DNA of 24,940 nt from positions 1 through 24,940 of the IMG/VR virus record IMGVR_UViG_3300043654_000084. One strand, 5' to 3'. This document shows positions 1 to 23,390 of this stretch, one piece after another (the stretch's first letter is position 1; each line of letters starts with the position of its first letter). Both the position numbers and the translations under genes were made by a program. The DNA is from a virus. The notes beneath the pieces were generated by a model. That model worked only from the letters and a program-made list of their open reading frames with translations. It searched no databases and was not told the DNA's origin.

Positions 1-1362
1 TCAACAGCGCAGGGCGGCCCAAGCGGTCACGAACAGGTGTTTCCACGGATAGCTACGACTATACCGAATCCAAATGCGCCGGGCAGTCACGCGCACCTGG
101 GCGGCGATTTTCAGCAGCCGCAACCGGATGGTGTCCACTTGCGCGGTGGCCCACTCTGTTCCGGCAAGTCCCAGTCGCCGCAGCGCGTGCACCAGCACGT
201 ACGCCAGCGACGAGAAGTACAGCCGCAACTGATTGGCGCGCATGGTCTCCGTGCTCATGCGGTCGCTGAACAGGTGGAACTGTTCCTTGATGCGATTCTC
301 CATCTCGCCCCGCGCGCAGTAGCACTGCTCGTAGAGTTCCCGCGCCGGCCATTCCGACGCCGGCAGTGAGGTGACCACGTAACGTGGGTTCTCGCCCTTC
401 GCCAGATACTCCGCTTTGGCCACTACGCGCCGCGACCGCGACCAACTGGTGCGCGTGCGGTAGACGAGCTCCGCGAACACGCGTGCGGCTTTGCCCGTGC
501 GCCGGTGTTCCCGCTTCGCTTCGCGCATCTGCCGAGCCATTTTCCGCCGCAACCGCGCGTTGCGCGCCAGGCCGAAAACATAGTGCACACCGTGGGTTTC
601 GCACCACCGCATCAGCTCCTCGCGGCAGAACCCAGAGTCGGCCCGCAGCACGATCCCTACCTTGGGCCAGTGGGCCCGAATTTGCGCGACGACGCGTTCC
701 ACCTCGGCGAGACTGCCCGCGCTGGCGTCCTGATTCGACGGCCGCAGCCTGGCGCACAGCAGATGGTCCTCACAGAAGATGTACAGCGGCAGGTAGCAAT
801 AGTGGCCGTAGTAGCCGTGGAAGAAGCGCCCCTCCTGCTCTCCGTGCAGCGGGGTGTCGGTCACGTCCAGGTCCAGCACCACCTCGCGCGGCGGCTGGGA
901 GTGCGCCTCCAGAAAGATCTGCACCAGCAGCGCGTCCAGCGCCTCGGCCGAGTAGCTGATGCGGTGGTAGCGCTCGGTGAGTGGCGAACCGGCCGGAGCC
1001 AGTTCCATGCGGTTCAGCGTGCTCTTTCCCGCCAGCGGCGTGGTGAGATCGCGTCTGCCAGCGACCAGCGCCAGTAACGGATCGTGGCGCAGTTCCTCGT
1101 GGTCGTTCAGATCCTCGTAGCCCAGCGCCAGCCCGTGGATGCGCTGTGCCAGCATCTCCTCCAGGGGATGCTCGACGCGCTCCGGATCGCGCCCGTCGGT
1201 GAAGCAACCGACCACGCGCCGCAGCAGACCGATGCGCCGGTCGACCTGACGCAACAGTGGCGCACCCCCTTCGGTGGAGAGCTGGCCGCCGTCGAACTGG
1301 GCCACCACCTGACGCGAAAAATGCGCTTCAAACGGGAACTGCGACTGGGTACACTCTGTCAT
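1..1362 (-). CDS. IS1380-family transposase (DDE)
   Basis: A 453-residue protein, the usual size for IS1380-family DDE transposases that cut and reinsert the element. It begins with a family-like stretch (VAQFDGGQLSTEGGAPLLR, about residues 20-38), and the RNase-H-like catalytic core follows: an aspartate in VVLDLDVTD (D166), a second in LRADSGF (D242), and a glutamate in RGEMENRIKE (E353 or E355), with the conserved basic helix after it. The reading frame is intact from ATG at 1362 to the stop at 1, so the enzyme may be active. A GA-rich stretch lies just upstream of the ATG, next to a stem that could limit translation. It points away from the phage genes and is not part of their operon. Confidence 0.93.
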   Translation of the reverse strand: MTECTQSQFPFEAHFSRQVVAQFDGGQLSTEGGAPLLRQVDRRIGLLRRVVGCFTDGRDPERVEHPLEEMLAQRIHGLALGYEDLNDHEELRHDPLLALVAGRRDLTTPLAGKSTLNRMELAPAGSPLTERYHRISYSAEALDALLVQIFLEAHSQPPREVVLDLDVTDTPLHGEQEGRFFHGYYGHYCYLPLYIFCEDHLLCARLRPSNQDASAGSLAEVERVVAQIRAHWPKVGIVLRADSGFCREELMRWCETHGVHYVFGLARNARLRRKMARQMREAKREHRRTGKAARVFAELVYRTRTSWSRSRRVVAKAEYLAKGENPRYVVTSLPASEWPARELYEQCYCARGEMENRIKEQFHLFSDRMSTETMRANQLRLYFSSLAYVLVHALRRLGLAGTEWATAQVDTIRLRLLKIAAQVRVTARRIWIRYSRSYPWKHLFVTAWAALRC

Positions 1363-3077: not shown

Positions 3078-4553
3078 GTGGGGGTGACAACGGAAACCGG
3101 GGCGGAGCGATGGGCGCGGGACGAAATAAAACGCCTGGAGCTACCTTACCAACCGTTCCCCAAGCAGGCGGTCTTTCACAGCTCTCCGGCGAAATACAGG
3201 CTCTTCGGCGGGGCCGCGGGTCCGGGGAAAAGCATGGCCCTGCTGATGGAGGGCGTGCTCAAGGCGTGCCAGCACGGCGGCGTCAATACGCTGCTGCTCC
3301 GGCGAACCTTCCCGGAGCTGGAGAAATCGCTGCTGCTCTATTTTCGGCGGCACGTGCCGCGGGAGCTCTACCGCAATTTCAACGAAGCGAAGCACGTGGT
3401 GACCTGGTTGAACGGCTCGGTCACCCAGTTCGGTTACTCCCGAAGCGAGCACGACATTTACCAGTACCAGGGCGCGGAGTTCGTGTTTATCGGGGTGGAC
3501 GAGCTGACGCAGTTCACCCTGGGGCAGTGGACGTTTCTCACCAGCCGGAACCGCTGCCCTGTGCCCGACACGTTTCCCTGCATGGCCGGGGCCACCAATC
3601 CGGGCGGGGTGGGCCATGCTTGGGTCAAGGCGCTGTGGATTGACCGACGCGCGGCCCCCGGGATGGAGCGCCCCGAGCAGTACCATCCCAGCGATTACCA
3701 CTATGTTCCCGCCCTGCTCGAAGACAACCCGGTTTACCGCCGGGATGAGAATTACCGGCGCACCCTCGAGGCTTTGCCCGGCCATTTGCGCCGCGCCTTC
3801 CTCCTGGGCGACTGGAACATCTTCGCCGGGCAGTATTTCGACATTTTCGACCTTCGGCTGAACACCGCGAGGGCCGAGGAGTTGGCCCCGGTTTGCGCCT
3901 CACCGTGGCTGCCGCGGTGGATCTCCATTGACTGGGGATTCGAGCATCCGGCAGCGGTGTACTGGCACGTGCAGGATGGCCCTCGGACCTTCACCTATCG
4001 CGAGTATGTGGCCCAGCGGCTGAGCCCGCGGACGCTGGCGCACGAGATCGCCGAGCGCAGCCGTGGCGAAAAGATTGACGCCGTCTACCTCGGCCCTGAC
4101 GCTTTCGCTCAGCGCACCGATGAGGCCACTATCGCCGAACAGTTGGGCACGGTATTCGCTCAGCATGGTATTCCTCGCCCCGCGCCCGCTGATAACGACC
4201 GCGTGGGTGGCTGGATGCTTCTCTACCAGCTCCTGGAGGCCGGCCAATGGGTGATCGCCGATAGTTGTCCGCGGCTCGTGGACGTGCTTCCCGCGCTCGT
4301 GCGCGACCAACGCAACGTCGAGGACGTGGCGAAAACGGACGGCGACGACCCCGCGGACGCCGCGCGGTACGGGCTGAAGTCGCGGCTGCGTCCCCGAACG
4401 GCGCCGATCGAGACGAGGTTGCTCGAACGCATGGCTGAAGTGAAGACGGACGATCCAACGGTGCGGGCGCTGTACGCGCGGAAATTCGAAGCGGAAGAGA
4501 AGCGCAAGAGGCGTCCGGTGTTTTTGCGGTGGGGATGGCGGCGGCCACACTGA
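3078..4553 (+). CDS. terL: Phage terminase large subunit (TerL)
   Basis: A 491-residue protein that would drive DNA packaging: an ATPase motor plus a nuclease that cuts the concatemer at the portal. The ATPase half shows a Walker A motif GGAAGPGKS (44-52), a Walker B strand VFIGVDE with D141 and E142, and a GATNPGG coupling-type motif (171-177). The C-terminal RNase-H-like nuclease half shows acidic positions in ISIDWGFEHP (D285), LGPDAF (D341) and DDPADAARYG (D424 or D427). Length is normal for the family. The start is GTG 3078; an in-frame GTG at 3084 is also possible. Its stop overlaps the ATG of the next gene (TGATG at 4551-4555). Confidence 0.95.
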   Translation: MGVTTETGAERWARDEIKRLELPYQPFPKQAVFHSSPAKYRLFGGAAGPGKSMALLMEGVLKACQHGGVNTLLLRRTFPELEKSLLLYFRRHVPRELYRNFNEAKHVVTWLNGSVTQFGYSRSEHDIYQYQGAEFVFIGVDELTQFTLGQWTFLTSRNRCPVPDTFPCMAGATNPGGVGHAWVKALWIDRRAAPGMERPEQYHPSDYHYVPALLEDNPVYRRDENYRRTLEALPGHLRRAFLLGDWNIFAGQYFDIFDLRLNTARAEELAPVCASPWLPRWISIDWGFEHPAAVYWHVQDGPRTFTYREYVAQRLSPRTLAHEIAERSRGEKIDAVYLGPDAFAQRTDEATIAEQLGTVFAQHGIPRPAPADNDRVGGWMLLYQLLEAGQWVIADSCPRLVDVLPALVRDQRNVEDVAKTDGDDPADAARYGLKSRLRPRTAPIETRLLERMAEVKTDDPTVRALYARKFEAEEKRKRRPVFLRWGWRRPH

Positions 4554-9447: not shown

Positions 9448-10710
9448 ATGCCAGCCATAGCCAATGCGCAGAGCGTTGCTCTGCAACTCGAAAAGGTGCG
9501 CCCGAAGGTGCCGGTGCTGTTCGAGCGCGACGACATTTTGCTGACGCTGATCCAAAAGAGAGGGGACGTGGAGAAGGTGAGCTCGCGAAACATGCGCGTG
9601 CCGCTGCAGATCCGTCCCGGAGGCAAAGCCTCGCAGCACACCATGGACGGGGACGACCTGGGGCGTGGGAGCGGGTCGGTGTACGACGTCGCCACGCTGA
9701 CGCCAGTGTTTCAGACATTCGCGGTGGAAATCACGAAGCTGGTGGAATACGCCACCACCGGAAACGAACGCGCGGTGGAAAACGCGGCGAAACGGGAGGT
9801 GGCCAGCGGGATGAAGCAGTTCCGCTGGTTCCTTGACACACTGCTGCAGACCAACGGCAACGGGGTGATCGGCAGCGTGGCGAGTTTTGCCGGGACCACG
9901 TGGACGCTGGCAGTGCCGCCCGGGGCGCAGTTGTTCTACTACAACCAGGACGTGCAGGTGTACGACTCTACGCTGACGACGAATCGCGGCACGGCCACCA
10001 TTCAGAGTGTGGACCCACTGAGCAAACAGATCACCGTCAGCGCGAATCCCGGAGGACTGACGAACGGCGACCTGATCGTTCCGGCGGGACTCTCAGGGGC
10101 GCAGCCGGTGAGCATCTTCGGGGTGAAGTATCACCACATCGATTCGACCACCGGGACGTGGCTGGGGCTCAGCCGCGCGACCTATCCGGAGGCGCTGCGC
10201 ACGCCGCACTTTGCTTCGGGCAATGCGGCGCTGGTGCCGTCGAATGTGCGACTGGCGGTCAACAAAATGCGGAAGGTGCTGGGAACGGACATCCTTTCGC
10301 GGGAGAAGCTGATTGCCTACATGTCGCCGGAACAGGAACATGCCTGGGAACAACTGGGCGTGACCATTTCGGAGATCGTGCGCAACCAGGTGCCGTCGGA
10401 TGCGGGGATGCCCGACCTGCTGTTCAACCAGCAGGTGGAGAAACGCATGGCCGGCGTGCCCATCAAAACCAGTATCCACGCCGATCCCACGCGGATCGAC
10501 TTCATCGCGCTGGCGCGGTGGGGCCGCGCGGTGATGAAAGAGATCGACTTCTACGAGGTGGGCGGGCAGACGGTGTTCCCGGTGTACGGGGCGTCGGGAG
10601 GGCTGGCCTCTTCGTATTTGTTCTACTTCACCACGGGCTTCCAGATCTTCATGGACGGCCCTCGGTTCGGGGCTTATGTGGATGGACTGGCGATTCCGAG
10701 CGGGTACTGA
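9448..10710 (+). CDS. Probable major capsid protein
   Basis: A 420-residue protein. The start ATG 9448 has a strong ribosome site (GGGAGGA at 9434-9440), the best in the window, as expected for the most abundant virion protein. The N-terminal part contains RNMRVPLQIRPGGKASQHTMDG and a long segment (VEITKLVEYATTGNERAVEN) like the spine helix of an HK97-type fold; a beta-rich insertion (residues 150-215) follows, then a helical A-domain-like region (VRLAVNKMRKVLGTDIL) and a hydrophobic end (LASSYLFYFTTGFQIFMDGPRFGAYVDGL, cited in part). Position after scaffold and portal and the size agree with a coat protein; fold assignment is inferred. Confidence 0.8.
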   Translation: MPAIANAQSVALQLEKVRPKVPVLFERDDILLTLIQKRGDVEKVSSRNMRVPLQIRPGGKASQHTMDGDDLGRGSGSVYDVATLTPVFQTFAVEITKLVEYATTGNERAVENAAKREVASGMKQFRWFLDTLLQTNGNGVIGSVASFAGTTWTLAVPPGAQLFYYNQDVQVYDSTLTTNRGTATIQSVDPLSKQITVSANPGGLTNGDLIVPAGLSGAQPVSIFGVKYHHIDSTTGTWLGLSRATYPEALRTPHFASGNAALVPSNVRLAVNKMRKVLGTDILSREKLIAYMSPEQEHAWEQLGVTISEIVRNQVPSDAGMPDLLFNQQVEKRMAGVPIKTSIHADPTRIDFIALARWGRAVMKEIDFYEVGGQTVFPVYGASGGLASSYLFYFTTGFQIFMDGPRFGAYVDGLAIPSGY

Positions 10711-12186: not shown

Positions 12187-15156
12187 ATGCGGAAGCGGGG
12201 AACGATTGTTCTGGCGCTGCTGGTGTGGCTGGCGGCAGCGGGAGAGCTGTGCGCGCAGGGAACGCGGAAGGACGATATCGTCCTGAATCGATTCGGCCAG
12301 CCGGTGGCCGGAGCGAATGTGACCGTGTGCACGTCGGGGGCGACTGGCACGCCGTGCTCGCCGCTGGCCAGCATTTATTCCGATGTCGGGCTGACGCAGC
12401 CACTGGCGAATCCGATGACCACGGACGGCCAGGGGAATTACCATTTTTATGCAGCTCCCGCCCGCTACAAGATTCAGATCTCCGGGGCCGGAACTACGAC
12501 GACTACGATTCCGGACGTACTGCTGGCGGCCGATCCGACGTCGCCGAGCTATCAGAGCCTGAGCGTCGCGCAGAACATCTCGGCGCTGAGCCTGAATTTG
12601 AGCGGCAACCTTGCCGTCACCGGCAACGTGAATTCGACAACGAGTGTGAGCGCGCCGCAGACGGGGAACACGGCGCCAGTGGAGATCGGGCCGGCGTGGT
12701 ATCCGGGCACGGCGAGCGGACTGGCGCCGTCTCCTCTCCTGGCCCCTGCGGTGGTGCTGGAGTCTGCAAGCGGAGGCACCATCGCGGCAGGAACGTACTA
12801 CTGCGTCGAGACTTACGGAAACCGGAACGGGGAGACGCTGGCGAGTCCGCAGAAGCAGATTGTGGTGGCCGCGGGAGCTACGAACCAAATTAACGTCTCC
12901 ACGAACAACGACAAGCAGCATTTCTTCGGCACCTACAAGATGCGCGTCTACTGTGGAACCGTAAGCGGAGGCCCGTACTTCCTCCAGACTCCTAAGACGG
13001 TTTCCTACACGGCGGTGAACAACGGACTTTCACGCACGTCGAACGTGGATACGGTGACATTTGCAGCGGCGACTGGCCTGGCGCGGAATCAGCAGATCAC
13101 CGTCGCCGGTGACGCGGGATGCGGAACGAGTTTCGCGGGCACCTATCGCATCACCGCGTCGAGCGTGGACTCGAAGACCTTCACGTTTCCGCAGACGGCG
13201 GGGAATGATGCGGCGTGCGGAGGCGCGGCCATCACGGTGAGTTACCCATTGGCCATCGACACGAACTGGGCGTACGCGGTGGATGGTGGTGGGTTTGAAG
13301 TCATCTTCACGGCGATTGTGGGCGCGGGGTCGAATCCTCCAGTCACCAACACGGCGACGATCGACCCGATCCAGGTAGCGGTGAATGCGGCGCGGCTGCC
13401 AACCGGAGCGGTTACCCGGCAAGGGTCTGTTTTGCTGGGCGGGGGAAACTACACGCTTACGACTCCGCTGATTCTCGGCTTCTCCGCTCCCGCTGTCGTG
13501 GGACAGGCTCCTACGGTCAAGAACGAAGGCGGCGGGTCGGGGACGACCATCCTCTGTCCTTGGAACGATTACAACACCGGCTGCGTGATGATTATGGGGA
13601 ACCTGATCGACATGGAGAACCTGTTCATCTTGGCGCAGGCAGGGGCCACCGCAGGCATTCTCATCACGCCGGGCTTCTCCGACTTCAACGGGATATATAC
13701 CAACGGCGTGAACGTGCAGGCGGACGGCACCAACGCGCAGGCTTGTGGCATCCGCATCTTCCGCGTCGCCACGCTGGACCAGGGCCAGTTCAACAATATG
13801 GCCATCAACTCCGGGGGGCGAGGCGGATTGTGCGGCTCGAACTCCTCTCTGTCGCCCATCTCGATAAATTACGGGAGAATCAACGCCGGGAGCGTCATTG
13901 GCAGTTCCTTTTTCATCTACGACGGCGGGCCGACAGACTGGGCGCGGGGCGTGAACTTCGGCGGATTTACTTCCGCGATGGGCCTGGACATTTACAACGT
14001 GGACGGCGAGCAGAATTCCGGGCCAGCGATTGACCTGGTAAACGTGGGTGACGTAACCATTCGATCTTTCACGAACTCAGATGCTGTCGGGATGCCCGCC
14101 GGTACGCTGGCATCTGCACTCGCTATGAGCAATGACTTTTTTGGCGGTGGCGGGCACGTCTACCTTGGAACAGCAACCGTGCTATTCGCTTCCGCCAATG
14201 CTTCGGCGACCATCAACTTCGCCACAGGGTCTGCCGCGCCAGTTTTTAAGTGCGATGGAGCGGCGGTCGAAGGCTCAAGTTTCTCGGGAGCTGCCGTAGG
14301 AATCGCCCTCAACAACACCGCCGGGTCGGTCTACATCGTGAACTGCCCGCTGCTCTCCATCAATCCTACGAGCGCGACATCGAGAATTACGGGGATAAGC
14401 ATTCTCGGAGGGACAAACAACACTTTTGCCTTCGTCCCGGTGCCGAGCAGTGCGGTATTTGCCGATGCCATGAATGCTGCGACTGGCCCGTTGAAAACCT
14501 ATGAGGCCAAGAACAGCGCGAACTCGCGGACGTGGTCACTCTCTGGCAACGTGTACGACCTGTTCAATTCCGACGGAACCACCGAACTGATTCGACAGAA
14601 CAGTGGAAGCCTGGGGAACTTCTCGTTCCTTGGAACGCTCGGCTTCATGGGCATCACCCCAGGAAACAACTTCATCATGACCGGCACGCCCTCTGCGCCG
14701 CGCACCATCACCTGGCCGGACAACAGCGGAACGGTGGCGGAGTTGAACGTCGCGCAGACGTGGACGCAAACGCAAACATTTTCCGGGGTGGGGTTGAGCG
14801 GGGACACCAGCTTCAGCGCGAGTCCGCGGCCTCCGCTCAACGCCTTCTTCCCCGGGGCGCTGACGTCGACCTGGACGGGGCTCACGTTCACTCCTGACAA
14901 GGCGATCACGGTTACGCGGTTTCAGGCCCAGGCGAAGACGGCGCCTGCGGGATGCACCACGAATGCCGTGATCCGTCTGACCGACGGCACGACGCCCGTC
15001 AACCTGACGGTGAGCAGCGCATCCCCGGACAGCGGAGCGATCTCCCAGAACTACGCGGCCGGCGCGGTGCTCACGGTTTCCATTTCGACCGCCGCGAGCG
15101 GGTGCACCACGAGTCCTGCCGACATCAATGTGACGGTGCAATACAGGATGCAATAA
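12187..15156 (+). CDS. Large tail fibre/tailspike-like protein with a signal peptide
   Basis: About 989 residues from ATG 12187 (GGGGAGGGA at 12172-12180 upstream). It begins with an apparent Sec signal: basic MRKRG, hydrophobic TIVLALLVWLAAAG, then LCAQ (cleavage around residue 24). Next is a module common in phage fibres, which typically joins the fibre to the tail (NRFGQPVAGANVTV...SIYSDVGLTQPLANPMTTDGQGNYHFY). The middle has a small beta module (about 281-351) and a long Gly/Asn-rich stretch resembling a parallel beta-helix (for example NLIDMENLFILAQAGATAGI). The end has shaft-like TITWPDNSGTVAELNVAQTWTQTQTF and a beta-rich tip ending in VTVQYRMQ. It would mediate host binding, possibly with polysaccharide-depolymerising activity if the helix is enzymatic; catalytic residues are not identifiable by eye. 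Confidence 0.8.
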   Translation: MRKRGTIVLALLVWLAAAGELCAQGTRKDDIVLNRFGQPVAGANVTVCTSGATGTPCSPLASIYSDVGLTQPLANPMTTDGQGNYHFYAAPARYKIQISGAGTTTTTIPDVLLAADPTSPSYQSLSVAQNISALSLNLSGNLAVTGNVNSTTSVSAPQTGNTAPVEIGPAWYPGTASGLAPSPLLAPAVVLESASGGTIAAGTYYCVETYGNRNGETLASPQKQIVVAAGATNQINVSTNNDKQHFFGTYKMRVYCGTVSGGPYFLQTPKTVSYTAVNNGLSRTSNVDTVTFAAATGLARNQQITVAGDAGCGTSFAGTYRITASSVDSKTFTFPQTAGNDAACGGAAITVSYPLAIDTNWAYAVDGGGFEVIFTAIVGAGSNPPVTNTATIDPIQVAVNAARLPTGAVTRQGSVLLGGGNYTLTTPLILGFSAPAVVGQAPTVKNEGGGSGTTILCPWNDYNTGCVMIMGNLIDMENLFILAQAGATAGILITPGFSDFNGIYTNGVNVQADGTNAQACGIRIFRVATLDQGQFNNMAINSGGRGGLCGSNSSLSPISINYGRINAGSVIGSSFFIYDGGPTDWARGVNFGGFTSAMGLDIYNVDGEQNSGPAIDLVNVGDVTIRSFTNSDAVGMPAGTLASALAMSNDFFGGGGHVYLGTATVLFASANASATINFATGSAAPVFKCDGAAVEGSSFSGAAVGIALNNTAGSVYIVNCPLLSINPTSATSRITGISILGGTNNTFAFVPVPSSAVFADAMNAATGPLKTYEAKNSANSRTWSLSGNVYDLFNSDGTTELIRQNSGSLGNFSFLGTLGFMGITPGNNFIMTGTPSAPRTITWPDNSGTVAELNVAQTWTQTQTFSGVGLSGDTSFSASPRPPLNAFFPGALTSTWTGLTFTPDKAITVTRFQAQAKTAPAGCTTNAVIRLTDGTTPVNLTVSSASPDSGAISQNYAAGAVLTVSISTAASGCTTSPADINVTVQYRMQ

Positions 15157-15503: not shown

Positions 15504-16247
15504 ATGCCGGTAGTGGGATCGTCGGGGTACGGCACAGCGTCGGGAGTGCTGACGCTGGTGCGGTCGTTGCTGGACGACGCGGCGGTGAGCACGGGCGACG
15601 TGTTCACGGATGCGGTGCTGATCCCGTTTGTGAACACGGCGTACCACCAGGTGCAGTTTGAGATGGCCAACCACGGGATCGAGACGTTTATCAAAGACAA
15701 CGTGGTTCTGACGGTTCCGGCAGTGACGGGAGCGGATCCATCCTTCCAGGTGGTGCTGAACGACACGCAGAATCAGATGACTACGGTCTCACCGACCCCG
15801 CAGATCCCCACGGACCTGCTGGTGCCGGTGCGGCTGTGGGAGCGGCAGACAGGGTCGAGCGAGGCATTCCTTCCGATGTTCCTGGAGAAGGACGGGCTCC
15901 CGTCTGAGACTCAGCAGGCGCGCCTGCGGTACTGGGAGTGGCGGACCGATGGAATCGTGATGCTGGGGGCGACGCAATCGAATGATATCCGCATCCGGTA
16001 CGAGTCCGTGCTGCCGGACGTCGTGCAGGGAACGGACACCATCCAGCTTCGCGGCGCGCAGGACAGCATCGGATTTCTTGCGGCTGCGCTGGCGGCGCAA
16101 TCGCGCGGGTCACCGCAGGCGCGGGACTTCGACGCGGCGGGAGATGAGGCGCTGCGGAAGATACTGGTGCGCGGGACACGGCGCCAGCAGCATGCCATGC
16201 ATCGGCGGCGGCCTTACGGCTGGCGCAGCCAGAACGTCTTTCTCTGA
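15504..16247 (+). CDS. Head-tail adaptor-like phage protein
   Basis: A 247-residue protein starting directly at the base after the preceding stop, with GGGAAGGGA at 15490-15498 as ribosome site. The N-terminal half contains helical segments typical of connector proteins (VLTLVRSLLDDAA, VFTDAVLIPFVNTAYHQVQFEM), followed by a beta-rich middle with IPTDLLVPVRLWERQTG and RYWEWRTDGIVMLG, then a helical segment and a strongly basic end (RRQQHAMHRRRPYGWR). This layout is like adaptor proteins that sit under the portal in podoviruses (P22 gp4-like). Assignment is by size, helix pattern and neighbourhood. A 120-base gap before the WD40 gene marks the end of this block. Confidence 0.65.
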   Translation: MPVVGSSGYGTASGVLTLVRSLLDDAAVSTGDVFTDAVLIPFVNTAYHQVQFEMANHGIETFIKDNVVLTVPAVTGADPSFQVVLNDTQNQMTTVSPTPQIPTDLLVPVRLWERQTGSSEAFLPMFLEKDGLPSETQQARLRYWEWRTDGIVMLGATQSNDIRIRYESVLPDVVQGTDTIQLRGAQDSIGFLAAALAAQSRGSPQARDFDAAGDEALRKILVRGTRRQQHAMHRRRPYGWRSQNVFL

Positions 16248-16367: not shown

Positions 16368-17942
16368 ATGAAGACAAATGTCAGGGATGCAGTGGCCCAC
16401 ATCCCTCGGGGGCTGCGTGTTACCGGTATCCTAACGGTCATCCTGCTCCAGGGCGCCGTGTTTGCCCAATCCGGCGCGGACAAGCAAGACGTGCCCTCGC
16501 CAGTTCTCAGGGGCGGCCATTTGGATGATGTTCTGACTGTTGCCTTCGGTCCCGACGGGAGCCTGGTAGCGTCGGGAAGTCATGATGGCGCGGTCAATAT
16601 TTGGAATCTCGAAAAGGGCACCGATGCTCGATCACTGCCGCTCTCCAGGCACGGATCGACGATCCGGGTTTACGCGGTTGAATTCAGTCCAGACTTGCAA
16701 TTGGTTGCAATCGGTGGCAGCGACAATGCAGTCAGGCTGCGGCAGGTTGAGACAGGCCAGGAGCTCCGTACTCTAAGTCTCGGACCCGCTACAAAGATCG
16801 ATTTCGTTCGGGCCATTGCCTTTAGCTCAGACGGAACGTTGGTGGCCGCCACGAGCGGCCCAAGCATTAAACTCTGGGACGCCGTTACGGGTACTGAACT
16901 TCGAACGCTGAGCGGTAATAAATACCCCGTGAACCACCTCGCATTTCGTCCCGGCACGAGTCTTCTCGCCTCTGGATGCAGTGACAAGACCGTTAAAATG
17001 TGGGATGCCGCAACTGGTCGAGAGATGCGGACACTTGAGGGACACAGCAATTTCATCACTGCCCTGGCTTTTGATCCCGGCGGTCGCCTCCTAGTCTCGG
17101 GAAGCACCGATGCAGTGATCATCTGGGATGCCGATACGGGAAACAAGCTTGGCGTGCTGCCTCATGCGGCGCAATCTTACAAGGACGACGGACTAGGATC
17201 CGGGACTGCCAATTTTATCAATTCGCTGGCCTTCAGTCCTGACGGACTTCTGCTGGCGCAGGCAAATCGTGATGGAACCATCGACCTCTGGGATGTCTCG
17301 ACGCGCCAGAATGTCCGCACCCTCCGGGGGCATCGTGGTTCGGTCAATAGCGTTTCCTGGGGTGGGAATCCACGCCGGCTGGTATCGGGGAGCAGTGACA
17401 GGACCGTAAAAATCTGGGATGTTGCGACGGGGAAATTGCTGGCAACTTCCGATCGGTTTTTCTACAGCGGGGTGATTGGCATTAGAATCTTGTTCCCGGA
17501 GGACTGGGAAAAGGGCTCCGAACAGGAAGCCGCGCTTGATCGCCCTGCAGGCGTGCAACTGGGCAAGCGGGATACGCTGGCGCGGGTGGCCCTGCTTCGG
17601 GAGCGCCTCGAACTATCGCCAGAATCGTACGAAAAACTGATGGAAGACGCCTTATCCCACTCATTCGAACAATTCTCAGTGGAAGGCAAGGAAGAAGTAA
17701 CGCGCGACGGCTTAGAAGGTGTTCACCTCGTATTGACCTGGCGGCGAAACGCTGTGCCGTTCCGCGCCTGGGTCGACGTCTTTTCTGTTGGAAAGCAGCA
17801 TTTCCGTGTCGAAGCAACGGCACCCCGCGAAGTGTTCGACCGCTATGCTGACACTTTTCGGCAGATGCTGTCCTCCGTCCGCTTCCCAGGTGAACACGTT
17901 GACAGCTCAGAGTTGCCCGCTCCTGAGCCTCCAAAGCCCTGA
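16368..17942 (+). CDS. Secreted WD40 beta-propeller protein with a DcrB/PsbP-like C-terminal domain
   Basis: A 524-residue protein from ATG 16368; an in-frame TTG at 16263 would put 35 residues before the signal and is rejected. Residues 18-34 (VTGILTVILLQGAVFAQ) look like a Sec signal peptide or membrane anchor. Seven WD40 repeats follow, about residues 47-358, enough for one closed propeller; clear repeats include VNIWNLEKG, IKLWDAVTG, VKMWDAATG, IDLWDVSTR and VKIWDVATG. Residues 363-508 form a separate domain (IGIRILFPEDWEKG...FRVEATAPREVFDRYADTF) resembling the PsbP/DcrB (DUF1795-type) fold. WD40 propellers bind other proteins, so a periplasmic scaffold role is likely. Its GC content is visibly lower than that of neighbouring virion genes, suggesting acquired cargo. 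No clear promoter is seen. Confidence 0.82.
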   Translation: MKTNVRDAVAHIPRGLRVTGILTVILLQGAVFAQSGADKQDVPSPVLRGGHLDDVLTVAFGPDGSLVASGSHDGAVNIWNLEKGTDARSLPLSRHGSTIRVYAVEFSPDLQLVAIGGSDNAVRLRQVETGQELRTLSLGPATKIDFVRAIAFSSDGTLVAATSGPSIKLWDAVTGTELRTLSGNKYPVNHLAFRPGTSLLASGCSDKTVKMWDAATGREMRTLEGHSNFITALAFDPGGRLLVSGSTDAVIIWDADTGNKLGVLPHAAQSYKDDGLGSGTANFINSLAFSPDGLLLAQANRDGTIDLWDVSTRQNVRTLRGHRGSVNSVSWGGNPRRLVSGSSDRTVKIWDVATGKLLATSDRFFYSGVIGIRILFPEDWEKGSEQEAALDRPAGVQLGKRDTLARVALLRERLELSPESYEKLMEDALSHSFEQFSVEGKEEVTRDGLEGVHLVLTWRRNAVPFRAWVDVFSVGKQHFRVEATAPREVFDRYADTFRQMLSSVRFPGEHVDSSELPAPEPPKP

Positions 17943-18074: not shown

Positions 18075-18419
18075 ATGGCACTGACGCTTACGGTGAATCA
18101 GTTTGACGTGGACTCGACGGGGAAGCAGGTGTACGTGGCGGGCGTGATTGCGGCCAGCGGGAGTTATACGACCGGAGGCGACACGCTCGATCTTTCGAAC
18201 CAGTCGTTCATTCCCTCGGCGCAAATACCGAAACAGGTCTCGCTGTTCACGCAGACGGGCCAAGTCTATAACTACACTTTCATTCGCGGGGCGGCGCTGA
18301 ACAACAACAAGGTGAAAATCTACGTCGGGGGCGGAGCGGAGCTGGGCGCGGGCGCGTATCCCGCGGCAATCACCTCCGACATCATCGCGTTCTCGGCGGT
18401 TTATCTGAAGTTGCAATGA
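18075..18419 (+). CDS. Small beta-rich structural phage protein
   Basis: A 114-residue protein with a good ribosome site (AGGAG at 18060-18064 before ATG 18075). Sequence is beta-rich and acidic-neutral (LTLTVNQFDVDSTGKQVYVAG, cited in part; YNYTFIRGAALNNNKVKIYVGGG; ending in FSAVYLKLQ) without Cys or a signal peptide. Such small proteins in phage clusters often decorate the capsid or sit in the tail, but I do not recognise the family. It stands between two cargo-like genes, 132 bases after the WD40 gene, and probably followed the adaptor gene before the WD40 gene was inserted. Confidence 0.65.
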   Translation: MALTLTVNQFDVDSTGKQVYVAGVIAASGSYTTGGDTLDLSNQSFIPSAQIPKQVSLFTQTGQVYNYTFIRGAALNNNKVKIYVGGGAELGAGAYPAAITSDIIAFSAVYLKLQ

Positions 18420-18629: not shown

Positions 18630-20441
18630 TCAGGGTTTCACCTTCTGGAAGAAGGTGTCGGCTTGCGAGTGAGTTTGCCCGGAGAGGGGATCGAGCGAAT
18701 TGATGGGCTCAGTCACCGGGTTGCGGTTGTCCCCCCAAACCGCGTAAACGCTGCCGTGGTTGTTGAACAGACCGACGTATTCGCCGAGGTTGTAGCAAGC
18801 GACGATGTTCCGGTCGAAATTGGTCGTACGGAACGGCTGGGCGCCCGTTGGGATGGGGATGTTGCTGGGCGCGAGGTCGAACGACTGACCGGTGATCCGG
18901 GTCGCACTGCCCAGAGCGAACTTGCTGCCCTGTCCAGTCTTAACGAGATCGAGATCAACCGTGCCGTCGCTGTGCTGGGTGTAGTAGGAGATGTCCACCT
19001 TATTCCCGGCGGCCTCAAGAGCAATGGCCGGATAGACGTGGCGGACATCATTCGCGGCGCTGGGATTGATCTGCTGGGGGCCGATCCAGGTTTGGCCGCC
19101 ATCGGTCGAGCGGAGCAGGAAAATGTTTGAGCCGCTCGACGGGTCGCCGAAGAACGGGCTATCCGAGGAGTTGTAAGCCAGGAAGACATTCCCGTTTTCG
19201 ACGGTGAGTGCAGGCTGAACGGTGAGACGCGAGGATTGAATGAAGCGGGGCAAGCCGAACCGACCACCCCCGATGTCGTTGCCCTGGACGATGGCGAGGC
19301 GGAAGCCGCCGCCGGGACTGCCGCAATCTTCGAACGTGCCGGGCTGAACGAGAGGAATGAGCGTCGGGTCGGGCGCCCCAGGGATGTTGAAGTTGGTGAA
19401 ATTGAACGTTTGCCCAGCATCGTCGCTCACCAGCATGCGATTGAAGTCCGTATCCACGTTGCTGAATTGTGCAAAGGGGATGTAGAGGCGTCCGTTTGAC
19501 CGGTCAACTGCCGGGTTTGTGAACTGGATGAAGTTTTGCGGGTGCGTCGGGTTGGGATCAGGTCCCGGGGCGAAGATAATTCTGGACTGGAAGGTCTGGG
19601 CTCCATCGGTCGAAACGGCGAGGCCCACGGCCGAGCCAGTGGAACTGAAACTGGTCCAGGTGACGTAGACGTTGTCGCGGCCGGGATTGTTCGGGTCTGG
19701 GCCCACGGCGATCCAGTTCTTGTCGCTGCCGTCGTCCACGACGGCCACAACCCCCGGGCCAAAGGTTTGGCCACCGTCGGTGGAGACGTTCACGACAACG
19801 GCGCCGTGCCCAGTGGCTGTTTCGCCGAGGCTCGCGTAATAAAAGGTGCCGCGGCGATCCACGGCAACTACGCCGTCACCGAAAGTAAATGGACCCACCC
19901 CGGGAACGGCAGGGACGAAGCCGGTGGCCCACGTCCGGCCGCCGTCGTTGGAGAACGAGTAGCCGGATAATTGAAGGCGCGTGAAGACCAGCCCCGGGCC
20001 GCCCGGGTTTGGTCCCACGGATGCGCCGGCGGAGTTGTTGTAGCTGACGACGATGTTCTGTCCGTGAGCGGCGACAGTGGTCTCGCTCTGCGTAAAGTGC
20101 AGGAACGGCCGGAAGCCGGGAAAGATTTGAATGTTGTCGAGCGCGGGGTCATTTACCTGTGTGTTGGCTCCGCGCAAGAGGTTTTGGCCATGGGAAAGCG
20201 ACGGGCTGAAGGTCGGAGCCGGTTCAGGCCCCAGCATCACCTGGCCCGCAACCTCGTCCCTCATGATGATGCCTTCGCTCCGCAGCTCGAGGTCGTCACC
20301 GAACTTGCTGACAGCGGTTACGAGCGGACCTCTCGTCGAGGCGCCGCTCTGTGCCGAACTGGAAACAGACAAGGCCATCGCGATCGCCAGTATCAGCGCG
20401 AGGCCTGCCAGATTGCGATACAACCGGCCGGGCTTAAACAT
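18630..20441 (-). CDS. Secreted BNR/Asp-box repeat protein (sialidase-superfamily-like)
   Basis: A 603-residue protein on the opposite strand to the phage genes. Start ATG at 20441 has a strong ribosome site (AGGAGG, 20444-20449 region, minus strand). Residues 1-30 are a signal peptide (LAGLALILAIAMALSVSSSAQ). Five Asp-box motifs mark a beta-propeller: SNDGGRTW (164), STDGGQTF (220), STDGAQTF (277), SDDAGQTF (339) and STDGGQTW (445). Such proteins are often labelled exo-alpha-sialidase, but I cannot see the FRIP motif or the arginine triad, so enzyme activity is unproven and a binding or structural role is as likely. It probably acts outside the cytoplasm. The opposite strand, its own ribosome site and a possible terminator mark it as independent cargo between phage genes. 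Confidence 0.82.
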   Translation of the reverse strand: MFKPGRLYRNLAGLALILAIAMALSVSSSAQSGASTRGPLVTAVSKFGDDLELRSEGIIMRDEVAGQVMLGPEPAPTFSPSLSHGQNLLRGANTQVNDPALDNIQIFPGFRPFLHFTQSETTVAAHGQNIVVSYNNSAGASVGPNPGGPGLVFTRLQLSGYSFSNDGGRTWATGFVPAVPGVGPFTFGDGVVAVDRRGTFYYASLGETATGHGAVVVNVSTDGGQTFGPGVVAVVDDGSDKNWIAVGPDPNNPGRDNVYVTWTSFSSTGSAVGLAVSTDGAQTFQSRIIFAPGPDPNPTHPQNFIQFTNPAVDRSNGRLYIPFAQFSNVDTDFNRMLVSDDAGQTFNFTNFNIPGAPDPTLIPLVQPGTFEDCGSPGGGFRLAIVQGNDIGGGRFGLPRFIQSSRLTVQPALTVENGNVFLAYNSSDSPFFGDPSSGSNIFLLRSTDGGQTWIGPQQINPSAANDVRHVYPAIALEAAGNKVDISYYTQHSDGTVDLDLVKTGQGSKFALGSATRITGQSFDLAPSNIPIPTGAQPFRTTNFDRNIVACYNLGEYVGLFNNHGSVYAVWGDNRNPVTEPINSLDPLSGQTHSQADTFFQKVKP

Positions 20442-20720: not shown

Positions 20721-23390
20721 GTGAGCGTGGCGGGACTTGCGCCGGCGGCCGTGGAGGTATTCGGCTCGCTGGTAACGTATACGGAGGCGAGCGTGCTCCC
20801 GCCCGGAGTTTCGCCGGATTGCCAGGACGTGCAGTTCATGCTCGAGGGAGTGCGGACGCGGGACGGGCTGCTGTCGATTCTAGGACCGCTGGCGGGCGGG
20901 GTGAATATCAACGGGCTGAAGACGCACATCACGCCGGCCGAGAATCTTCGCACCCTGGTGTTCGACAGCAACGGAAACCTGTACCGCGAATACACGCCCG
21001 GCACACTGCAACTGCACACGCCGGGGATGGCGGACAATTCCTTCCTGGCGTCGACAACGCTTTTCGGGCGGGAATACATCGCCATTTCGGACCAGTCGGC
21101 GGGCGCGGACATGCCGCGGCAGTACGACGACTCGCTCAACCTGGATCGCGTGAGCCAGGTGGGGCCGGGAGAACCGCCGGCAGTTGCGGACGCGTCATTT
21201 ACGCCCGTGAATATCGCCGCGGCGCCGACTGGAGCGGTCCGCAATTCGGCTGGAACCGTGGTGACGATCACGACCACGTCGCCGCACGGACTGGTGGTGG
21301 GCGCGACGAGCAGCCAGACGGTGACGATCGCCGGGGTTGCGGACACTTCGTTCAATGGCACGTTTCCAGTGGCGAGTGTGGCGGATGCCACACACTTTAC
21401 GTACGCCCAGGGCGGAACGGCCAGCGCCACGAGCGGCGGGGGCACGTCAACCATCGCGGGGAACATCGCGCCAGGCGTGCATCAACTGTGCGTACTCTTC
21501 CAGACGCGGCAGGGATATTTGACGGCGCCGTCGCCGGCGGTGTCGTGGACGGCGGCAGGGTCGAAACAGGCGACAATGACAAACATCCCCACGGGGCCCG
21601 CGAACGTGGTGGCACGGATCCTGGCGTTTACCGGAGCGGGCGGAGCGAGCTTCTACTACGTTCCGGCAACGATGATCCTGAGCGACAACACCACGACGTC
21701 GGTGACGCTGGATTTTTCCGACACGATTCTGCTTTCGGGCGTGAACGTGGACATGCTCTTCCCCCTGGTGGAGTTGGGGGAATGCGCGGGAGTGATCGGC
21801 TACGCCTCGCGGCTGTTCTGGTGGGGAGAGCGAAACAAACAGACGAATTGGATCAACCTGACGTTCGACGGTGGCTGGGACGCGAGCGGGAACGGGCGCC
21901 CGCTGGGATGGCAGCGCGACGCCACCTATGGCGCGGGAGGTCAGCGCGAGGGCACCGACGTGGCCTGGGGCGACGCTTACCGCGTGGTGGCCGATGGGGC
22001 AACGGCGACGCGCGGGCTTATCAGGCAGGGGGCGGTGCAGGATGCCGAGGGCGTGGCGCGCATCGCGGCAAACACGGATTACTCGGTGCGGGCGCGGGTG
22101 AAGCGCAGCGCGGGGCTGGCGACGGGGACGCTGCACGTCCAGCTCTACAGCGCGTCCGCATCCATCAGCACCGTCGGCCTCACGGTGAGCGCGGCGACGG
22201 CGACGACAACCTGGGCGGAATACATCGCCGAGCTGACGCCGCCGCTGACGGCGATTCCGAGCGACCTGGTGCTGCGCGTCTATGCCGACGGCACGCCGGG
22301 GCCGAGCGGCGAATTCTTTCTGGTAGACAACATCGAGATCTTCCCCACGACGGAGCCGGTGAACGGCTCGAGCGTGCGAGCCAGCCGGGCGGAAAATGCG
22401 GAGAGCTACGACGGGGTCAGCGGCTTCCTGAACATTTCGGAGAACGATGGGCAACGGGTGCGGGCAGCGTTCGTGCTGCGCGACATCCTGTACTTCGTGA
22501 AAGACCGCAGCCTGCACGCCACCTCGGACGACGGGGTAAACGAGCCGTCCCTGTGGGCGCTTTCCGAGGTTTCGCAGCGGCTGGGGACGCCGAGCATCCA
22601 GGGAGCCGACCTGGGCGATGATTTTGCGGTTATCGCCGGACGCAACGGCTTGTATCTGTTCAACGGTGGGGAGCCGCAAAAGCTTTCCACGGAAATCCAG
22701 CCCACGTGGGATTCGATCAACTGGGCCGCGGGCGAGACGTTGTGGGTGCGGGTGGACCAGCAGGCCAGGCGCATCCTGGCCGGGGTGCCGCTGGGGACGG
22801 CCACGAAACCGAATGCCGTGCTGGTTCTCGATTACCGCGATGGAATCGAACCCCCATTGCGCACCTCACTGACCGGGCGGCTGATCGCCACGCCGCAGTC
22901 GCGCCGATGGACGATCTGGAACATCGCGGCAACTTCCTGCGGGCTGATCGAACGCAGCGACGGCACGGTGAAGCTGTTCTTCGGCTCGAATGCGGGCACG
23001 GGGAAGATCTACCAGCTCACTCCGGGCATGTATTCGGATGATGGCGCGGCGATCAACAGCTACTATTCCACGGCGTTTCTGACCGGTACGGAGCTGGGCA
23101 ACGTGCCGCCGATCGGACGACAACTGTTCGGCTACCTGCAATTGAACGTGAGCGGAACGGGGAGCCTGAGTGTGACCGCCCGGCCGCAGGGTAACGTCAG
23201 CCCGGTCATGCTGCGGGCGCTTGGCCTGGCGAATCCTTCGCCGCACGACAGGGAAATCACCACGCGGATCTACAGCGAACGGGTGAGCTACAAGCTGGCC
23301 ACCGGCGCGGCGAACCAGTGGTTCTCTCTGGGGAAACTGGTGGCGTGGTTGAGGCCGGCGCCGTACAGCTATGTGCGGGGCGGGGTCTGA
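20721..23390 (+). CDS. Large tail protein, nozzle/stabilisation-like
   Basis: An 889-residue protein from GTG 20721 (a GGAAAGGA stretch lies upstream). The N-terminal part (PPGVSPDCQDVQFMLEGVRTRDGL, cited in part) matches the general pattern of podovirus tail-nozzle proteins, which begin by listing source values in a propeller. Residues about 169-248 form a small beta module (VVTITTTSPHGL...VTIAGVADTSFNGTFPV) also seen in the fibre. Next come a fibronectin-like segment, RLFWWGERNKQTNWINLTFDG, and a carbohydrate-binding-like sandwich (about 390-545) inserted before the propeller resumes (DGQRVRAAFVLRDILYFVKD). It would close the tail tube and hold the DNA in the virion. The nearest functional analogue is P22 gp10, but this protein is nearly twice as long. 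Confidence 0.7.
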   Translation: MSVAGLAPAAVEVFGSLVTYTEASVLPPGVSPDCQDVQFMLEGVRTRDGLLSILGPLAGGVNINGLKTHITPAENLRTLVFDSNGNLYREYTPGTLQLHTPGMADNSFLASTTLFGREYIAISDQSAGADMPRQYDDSLNLDRVSQVGPGEPPAVADASFTPVNIAAAPTGAVRNSAGTVVTITTTSPHGLVVGATSSQTVTIAGVADTSFNGTFPVASVADATHFTYAQGGTASATSGGGTSTIAGNIAPGVHQLCVLFQTRQGYLTAPSPAVSWTAAGSKQATMTNIPTGPANVVARILAFTGAGGASFYYVPATMILSDNTTTSVTLDFSDTILLSGVNVDMLFPLVELGECAGVIGYASRLFWWGERNKQTNWINLTFDGGWDASGNGRPLGWQRDATYGAGGQREGTDVAWGDAYRVVADGATATRGLIRQGAVQDAEGVARIAANTDYSVRARVKRSAGLATGTLHVQLYSASASISTVGLTVSAATATTTWAEYIAELTPPLTAIPSDLVLRVYADGTPGPSGEFFLVDNIEIFPTTEPVNGSSVRASRAENAESYDGVSGFLNISENDGQRVRAAFVLRDILYFVKDRSLHATSDDGVNEPSLWALSEVSQRLGTPSIQGADLGDDFAVIAGRNGLYLFNGGEPQKLSTEIQPTWDSINWAAGETLWVRVDQQARRILAGVPLGTATKPNAVLVLDYRDGIEPPLRTSLTGRLIATPQSRRWTIWNIAATSCGLIERSDGTVKLFFGSNAGTGKIYQLTPGMYSDDGAAINSYYSTAFLTGTELGNVPPIGRQLFGYLQLNVSGTGSLSVTARPQGNVSPVMLRALGLANPSPHDREITTRIYSERVSYKLATGAANQWFSLGKLVAWLRPAPYSYVRGGV

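Follow-up and report, generated by a model that had tools for sequence, protein, structure and literature searches.

A foreign-type WD40 propeller gene with a signal-peptide-like start inside a phage structural cluster

Among described phage genes, morons of the lambda lom type come closest to the gene reported here. In lambda, lom encodes an outer-membrane protein with a signal peptide and lies between the spike and fibre genes (section on lom in PMC12309495). The WD40 gene resembles such morons in being an extra gene for an exported-type protein among virion genes, in its absence from related phages and in its foreign composition. Lom is a beta-barrel, whereas the WD40 protein is a propeller with an additional domain, and no sigma-70-like promoter or intrinsic terminator was found at the flanks of its gene by a scan that may be ill suited to the bacteria concerned. 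Bacterial WD40 repeat proteins (PF00400), of which PDB entry 2ymu was the best sequence hit, share the seven repeats in one propeller; to these the phage protein adds a signal-peptide-like start, a C-terminal DcrB-like domain and carriage by a phage. Propeller proteins of phages are already present in databases and are hence not new: PHROG 19311 (function unknown) matched the WD40 protein at E 6.3e-15, and BFVD models from uncultured Caudovirales phages (rows 7, 38, 41 and 46) matched it too, in each case over the propeller part only. Neither WD40 nor propeller is a term used in the main text on the Tunturi viruses of Acidobacteriota (PMC11924767), and the relevant text of PMC6851490 and PMC11414923 concerns other proteins. 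No account of an exported phage WD40 protein was found among open-access papers, most of which were judged by their listing.

The phage record and its host

The window is the whole of one IMG/VR virus record, 24,940 bases in length, which may be a fragment and seems to derive from a soil phage of an uncultured family. Its features are collected in Table 1. The names portal, scaffold, adaptor and spike are labels taken from position and size, and the portal, adaptor and spike ORFs gave no informative family match in Pfam and PHROG scans. The placing of the WD40 ORF within a phage cluster, as proposed in an earlier note on this DNA, was upheld by the terminase and capsid PHROG matches and by neighbours that recur in many virus contigs. 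Homologues of the terminase, the capsid gene, the neighbouring genes, g18075 and g20721 were found across many IMG/VR contigs; those of the adaptor-like gene were present in the 80 loci retained from a set of 94 virus loci, and those of g20721 in 43 related virus loci. Distant terminase matches were obtained in 852 records of isolated phages (32-36% identity among the matches listed), and the capsid protein had 0 matches among 50,697 phage records.

Table 1. Features of the 24,940-base window discussed in the text.
Feature	Position	Strand	Basis
DDE_Tnp_1_4 transposase, left record end	1..1362	-	Pfam E 5.1e-155
Terminase large subunit	3078..4553	+	PHROG 979 E 2e-37
Major capsid protein	9448..10710	+	PHROG major head protein E 2.8e-07
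Spike-like protein, signal-peptide-like N-terminus	12208..15156	+	label from position and size; no PHROG match
Adaptor-like gene, left of insertion	15504..16247	+	label from position; no Pfam or PHROG match
WD40 protein gene, 524 aa	16368..17942	+	ATG at 16368, stop at 17942, no internal stop
Signal-peptide-like N-terminus, residues 1-33, cleavage between VFA and Q	16368..16466	+	read from sequence
Seven-bladed WD40 propeller, about residues 50-361	16515..17450	+	Pfam WD40, 7 stretches; AlphaFold2, 28 strands
C-terminal DcrB/PsbP/Mog1p-like domain, weak, about residues 362-515	17451..17912	+	sequence tests
g18075, conserved small phage gene, right of insertion	18075..18419	+	recurs in related virus loci
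Second acquired gene, BNR type, 603 aa, signal-peptide-like start	18630..20441	-	Pfam; codon z=13.1
g20721, conserved 889 aa protein	20721..23390	+	structural by position; weak PHROG virion/tail matches

The phage family likely infects Acidobacteriota and likely has some temperate members, because the flank of one related record (L106) matches Acidobacteriota genomes and an integrase is present in 4/47 related records; for the window itself the host assignment is indirect, and temperateness is a statement about the family. The L106 flank looks chromosomal, and a 1,057-aa gene in it had matches of 55-59% identity spanning almost the entire gene in 5/149 Acidobacteriota genomes. A phosphoesterase gene of L106 (17926-21099) was dropped as candidate cargo, as it sits in this host-like flank. 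No integrase match was found in the window, which may be incomplete. Across 396 Acidobacteriota genomes the best terminase match had 39% identity. The transposase with which the record starts, taken here to be of the IS1380 type, was matched in 8/199 Acidobacteriota genomes at E<=1e-50 with up to 61% identity, and at most hints at the same host.

The WD40 gene, its site and its composition

The N-terminus of the WD40 protein, read by eye, is MKTNVRDAVAHIPRGLRVTGILTVILLQGAVFA followed by QSG, and combines basic residues and a hydrophobic core with a V-x-A cleavage site; the signal peptide described in the earlier note is thus present as a signal-peptide-like start, by which the protein is probably exported. 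PF00400 was matched in seven stretches at E 5.5e-59 and 194.6 bits (cut-off 27). A single-sequence AlphaFold2 model contained 28 strands arranged as seven four-stranded blades over residues 55-361, so that the repeat count of about seven given earlier was recovered by both routes. When residues 51-360 of the model were averaged in ten-residue blocks, mean pLDDT was 73-94 in 27/31 blocks and 35-67 in the other four.

Codon use sets the gene apart, as had also been observed before. Its codon distance was z=14.3, and none of the reference virion-cluster genes exceeded 5.4, a composition unlike that of its neighbours such as is expected of a moron, and its GC3 was 0.61 compared with 0.74-0.83 in structural-type genes. 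A second gene, on the far side of g18075, was similarly deviant (z=13.1, GC3 0.76); the other 14 window genes tested for codon distance had z at most 5.4. The protein encoded by this second gene reached 29.9 bits with Pfam Tli3 (cut-off 27) and 25.6 bits with BNR, below the cut-off of 27, and had no relative in viral_contigs. Because the two GC3 values are dissimilar, the two genes may have had different donors. The sequence AGGAGG stands three bases upstream of the ATG of the BNR-type gene.

To place the insertion, the junction downstream of the adaptor-like gene was surveyed in 81 loci, L106 being added by hand and several rows coming from near-identical records. The first recognised gene after the adaptor was g18075 in 53/81, g20721 in 13/81, the spike-like gene in 10/81 and none in 5/81. 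Where g18075 followed, the two genes overlapped or were separated by at most 262 bp in 49/53 loci, compared with 1827 bp in the window. The exceptions among the 53 were L224 (660 bp), L300 (1612 bp), L301 (1705 bp) and L106 (2131 bp); the gaps of L300 and L301 contain extra adaptor-like genes and that of L106 contains a gene for an NHL-repeat protein. The window's 1.8 kb gap is occupied by the WD40 gene, which is thus an extra gene between genes that are adjacent in relatives, as in a moron. By eye, the large post-adaptor gaps of L282, L286, L295, L296, L300 and L301 contain phage-type genes, and L250, which has a different gene order, carries a helicase-like insert between adaptor and g20721.

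None of the 47 related records contained a WD40 match over the cut-off, with one match below it. No relative of the WD40 protein was confirmed in viral_contigs and none was found in 50,697 phage records, by searches able to reach close relatives only; the recurrence of a WD40-plus-domain fusion in phages, which the earlier note had raised, was accordingly absent from both collections at that depth. Searches of genome_contigs returned 36 loci, and among the matches listed all fell within query residues 4-389, the WD40 part; 341 plasmid records were also returned, with 0 covering 80% of the protein. The best relatives of the WD40 part span several phyla, and this part is therefore uninformative on origin.

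The C-terminal domain

The remainder of the protein had been likened in the earlier note to DcrB, which that note links to phages C1 and C6, and to PsbP. What was recovered was a weak sequence-profile resemblance that fell short of the family threshold: the Pfam DcrB model (PF08786, DUF1795, including DcrB, EagT6 and PA0094, of the Mog1p/PsbP fold) matched the C-terminal domain at E 0.02 and 15.4 bits (cut-off 27.2), the aligned part being the C-terminal two thirds of the model. Two further differences from DcrB are the fusion to a propeller and the anchor. DcrB carries a lipid-anchoring N-terminal Cys, and the functions of the Mog1p/PsbP fold group are diverse (both from the relevant part of PMC7716261); no Cys lipobox or lipid-anchor Cys was found in the signal-peptide region of the WD40 protein.

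DcrB domains were detected in 5/199 Acidobacteriota genomes at E<=0.01, two of them over the Pfam cut-off. A home-built DcrB-like profile was made from five Acidobacteriota domains, only two of which lay above the Pfam DcrB cut-off. Against the PDB this profile found EagT6 (E 2.2e-07), PA0094 (E 2.3e-07) and two DcrB entries (E about 0.004), followed by BTF3 chains from E 0.017. On the C-terminal domain it gave 8.0 bits, equal to E 0.3 for the small set searched; this score exceeded those of 2000/2000 same-residue shuffles, narrowly (best shuffle 7.9 bits), and of 347/347 accessory ORFs of related phages. Alignment with hhalign returned E 0.0043 yet a probability of 8%.

Modelled alone from the single sequence, the domain gave a poor model (pLDDT 49.9). 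With this model Foldseek returned no hit at E<=0.001, and its top rows were taken by designed proteins and proteins of the NsrQ type; EagT6, cyanobacterial PsbP and PA94 came lower down within the first 50 rows. VIA-align with the same model placed SPLUNC1, CENP-N and AMPK in the top rows with Z at most 6.7, the level that the tool calls 'common'. No DcrB-named entry stood among the rows listed by either program. The domain alone was found in 0/396 Acidobacteriota genomes and, in another scan, in 0/4, counts that show little as the search was run without a positive control, and in the fetched related loci the best low-level hits had E 2 or worse. A Mog1p/PsbP-like fold is likely for this domain, judged by its profile resemblance.

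Explanations for the gene and other cargo of the family

The WD40 gene is a plausible moron because it is an acquired, probably exported propeller gene within a structural cluster. In the reading that we prefer, and to which we would give about an even chance, it is accessory cargo for an exported binding scaffold that alters the host envelope; export, binding and an effect on the envelope are what we infer from the sequence. A phage of the uncultured, probably Acidobacteriota-infecting family would have acquired the gene between the adaptor-like gene and g18075. The protein would leave the cytoplasm by Sec, its signal segment would be cleaved after about residue 33, and the mature protein would reside either in the periplasm or on the outer surface, where its propeller would bind a host envelope protein. 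Such binding, to which the DcrB/PsbP-like domain would add a further contact, would alter the dealings of the infected cell with its surroundings or with other phages. If the protein is used at all, such a modification might, at a chance of perhaps a quarter, take the form of a blocked phage receptor or blocked injection. Points against this reading are the late-gene orientation of the gene, so that expression in a lysogen would be putative, the negative promoter and terminator scan at its flanks, the lack of an integrase match in the window and the indirect host assignment.

This account keeps one part of the interpretation in the earlier note, in which a DcrB-like envelope protein was proposed for superinfection exclusion or another change to the host surface: the acquired, probably exported propeller gene in the structural cluster stands, and the argument from DcrB gains no support. 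Because the match is below the cut-off, the lipid-anchor Cys is missing and the fold is functionally diverse, the DcrB resemblance says little on phage uptake, and it hardly raises the odds of superinfection exclusion.

The serious rival to the moron account, somewhat unlikely in our estimate, is that a host gene was caught by illegitimate recombination or transposition, has not yet been lost and is functionless for the phage. The foreign codon use, the lack of a copy in the other virus contigs searched and the transposase bordering the record on its left are all consistent with such a neutral passenger, as is the presence of possible sources, since Acidobacteriota chromosomes bear relatives of the WD40 protein (42/199 genomes at E<=1e-20) and of the BNR-type protein (8/199 genomes, 30-42% identity). 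Against it, the 524-codon frame is intact with a complete propeller and a signal-like start, two separate exported-type genes flank g18075, and two relatives also carry exported-type propellers. One of these (L106:7470-9410, minus strand), at the site of the WD40 gene, measures 646 aa, starts with a signal-peptide-like segment and contains NHL repeats (E 1e-16); the other (L096:595-1812, plus strand), between the scaffold and capsid genes, is a 405-aa signal-like PQQ_2 protein (E 5.1e-19). Both genes deviate in codon use from the core genes of their own records (z 7.4 against up to 3.4 in L106, z 7.1 against up to 1.3 in L096). Occupancy of one site by WD40 and NHL genes looks like swappable cargo, and it could also have come about by chance, WD40 proteins being common in Acidobacteriota and the L250 insert after the adaptor being of another kind.

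If acquired cargo is the right reading, the probably exported WD40 fusion is an addition to known phage cargo, in a likely Acidobacteriota phage family that gained exported-type propellers more than once. Cargo that altered the host surface would offer a route by which soil phages shape one very common soil phylum. A broader proposal, which we regard as improbable though worth stating, is that the family runs an exported toolkit made up of a spike-like protein with a Sec signal and swappable propellers (WD40, BNR, NHL, PQQ); were it true, binders encoded by the phage would cover the infected cell or its surroundings and would block rivals or mask receptors.

The spike-like protein also enters an explanation that we consider unlikely, in which the propeller is an exported or particle-associated accessory working with that protein, for example in receptor binding or as a surface decoy. 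A signal-peptide-like start was found in the spike-like protein of 30/30 relatives with an N-terminal match, compared with 3/351 for 13 other phage genes, under a home-made rule (basic residue, hydrophobic core and small-x-small site, best of the in-frame starts); 27/30 of the spike matches begin within the first 23 residues, inside the segment itself, and the choice of relatives is therefore not independent. The late-gene direction shared by the WD40 gene fits the same explanation. It is opposed by the lack of an over-threshold WD40 match in the 47 relatives, by codon use unlike that of the virion-cluster genes and by the fact that a place of the spike-like protein in the particle is putative. 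To our knowledge a Sec-exported part would be unusual in a tailed phage, which counts against it as well. The signal-like start of the spike-like protein is a puzzle with two solutions, a protein that is no part of the particle or a tailed-phage particle with an exported component, and because of it a signal peptide alone cannot separate cargo from family genes.

Superinfection exclusion through a DcrB-like decoy, the strict form of the idea in the earlier note, agrees with the signal-like start, the phage cluster and the weak DcrB profile resemblance; as the score misses the DcrB threshold, a lipobox Cys is lacking and the fold group is functionally varied (relevant part of PMC7716261), it is very unlikely. 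A chimeric assembly joining host and phage DNA, suggested by the metagenomic record and the foreign composition, is scarcely credible, as several false joins would be needed to place a foreign gene on each side of conserved g18075 and the separate record L106 carries a similar insertion there.

Accessory genes of the related phages were surveyed with a simple ORF rule that yielded 347 ORFs in 234 clusters; duplicates and near-duplicates (L097, L119, L120, L128, L159 and L160) were omitted from this and the signal-start survey. Family scans covered 91/103 not-yet-covered representatives of at least 190 aa and the NHL protein (12 omitted, 9 minus-strand). Exported-type propellers were a minority of the cargo, and no enrichment is claimed for them. 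Serine proteases of the SDH type (ClpP-like) were found in two different intervals (L093:12915-13934, L104:8192-9370 and L122:8384-9406), with foreign codon use (z 9.3-16.4, core genes up to 6.3). Further cargo comprised AAA/SMC-type proteins (L091, L123) and a DUF1420 membrane protein (L105), and one GH43 match was obtained among the scanned representatives.

Several smaller observations were made in the same records. Between the portal and scaffold genes, a gene opposing the direction of its neighbours is present in L040 (6648-7532), L041 (9846-10724) and L056 (6062-6928), and L220:4936-5778 resembles these by eye; the L040 gene matched a response-regulator receiver at E 1e-14 and a PilZ-like part at E 0.0015, below the cut-off. 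The scaffold-capsid interval of the same three records holds a family of small signal-like proteins (L040:9937-10704, L041:12311-13087 and L056:8655-9434, minus strand), of which the L041 member had no Pfam match. In L091 (12880-14663), after g20721, an AAA_21 ATPase gene overlaps a DUF3226 gene by one base, and the two are, at a guess, a defence-type pair.
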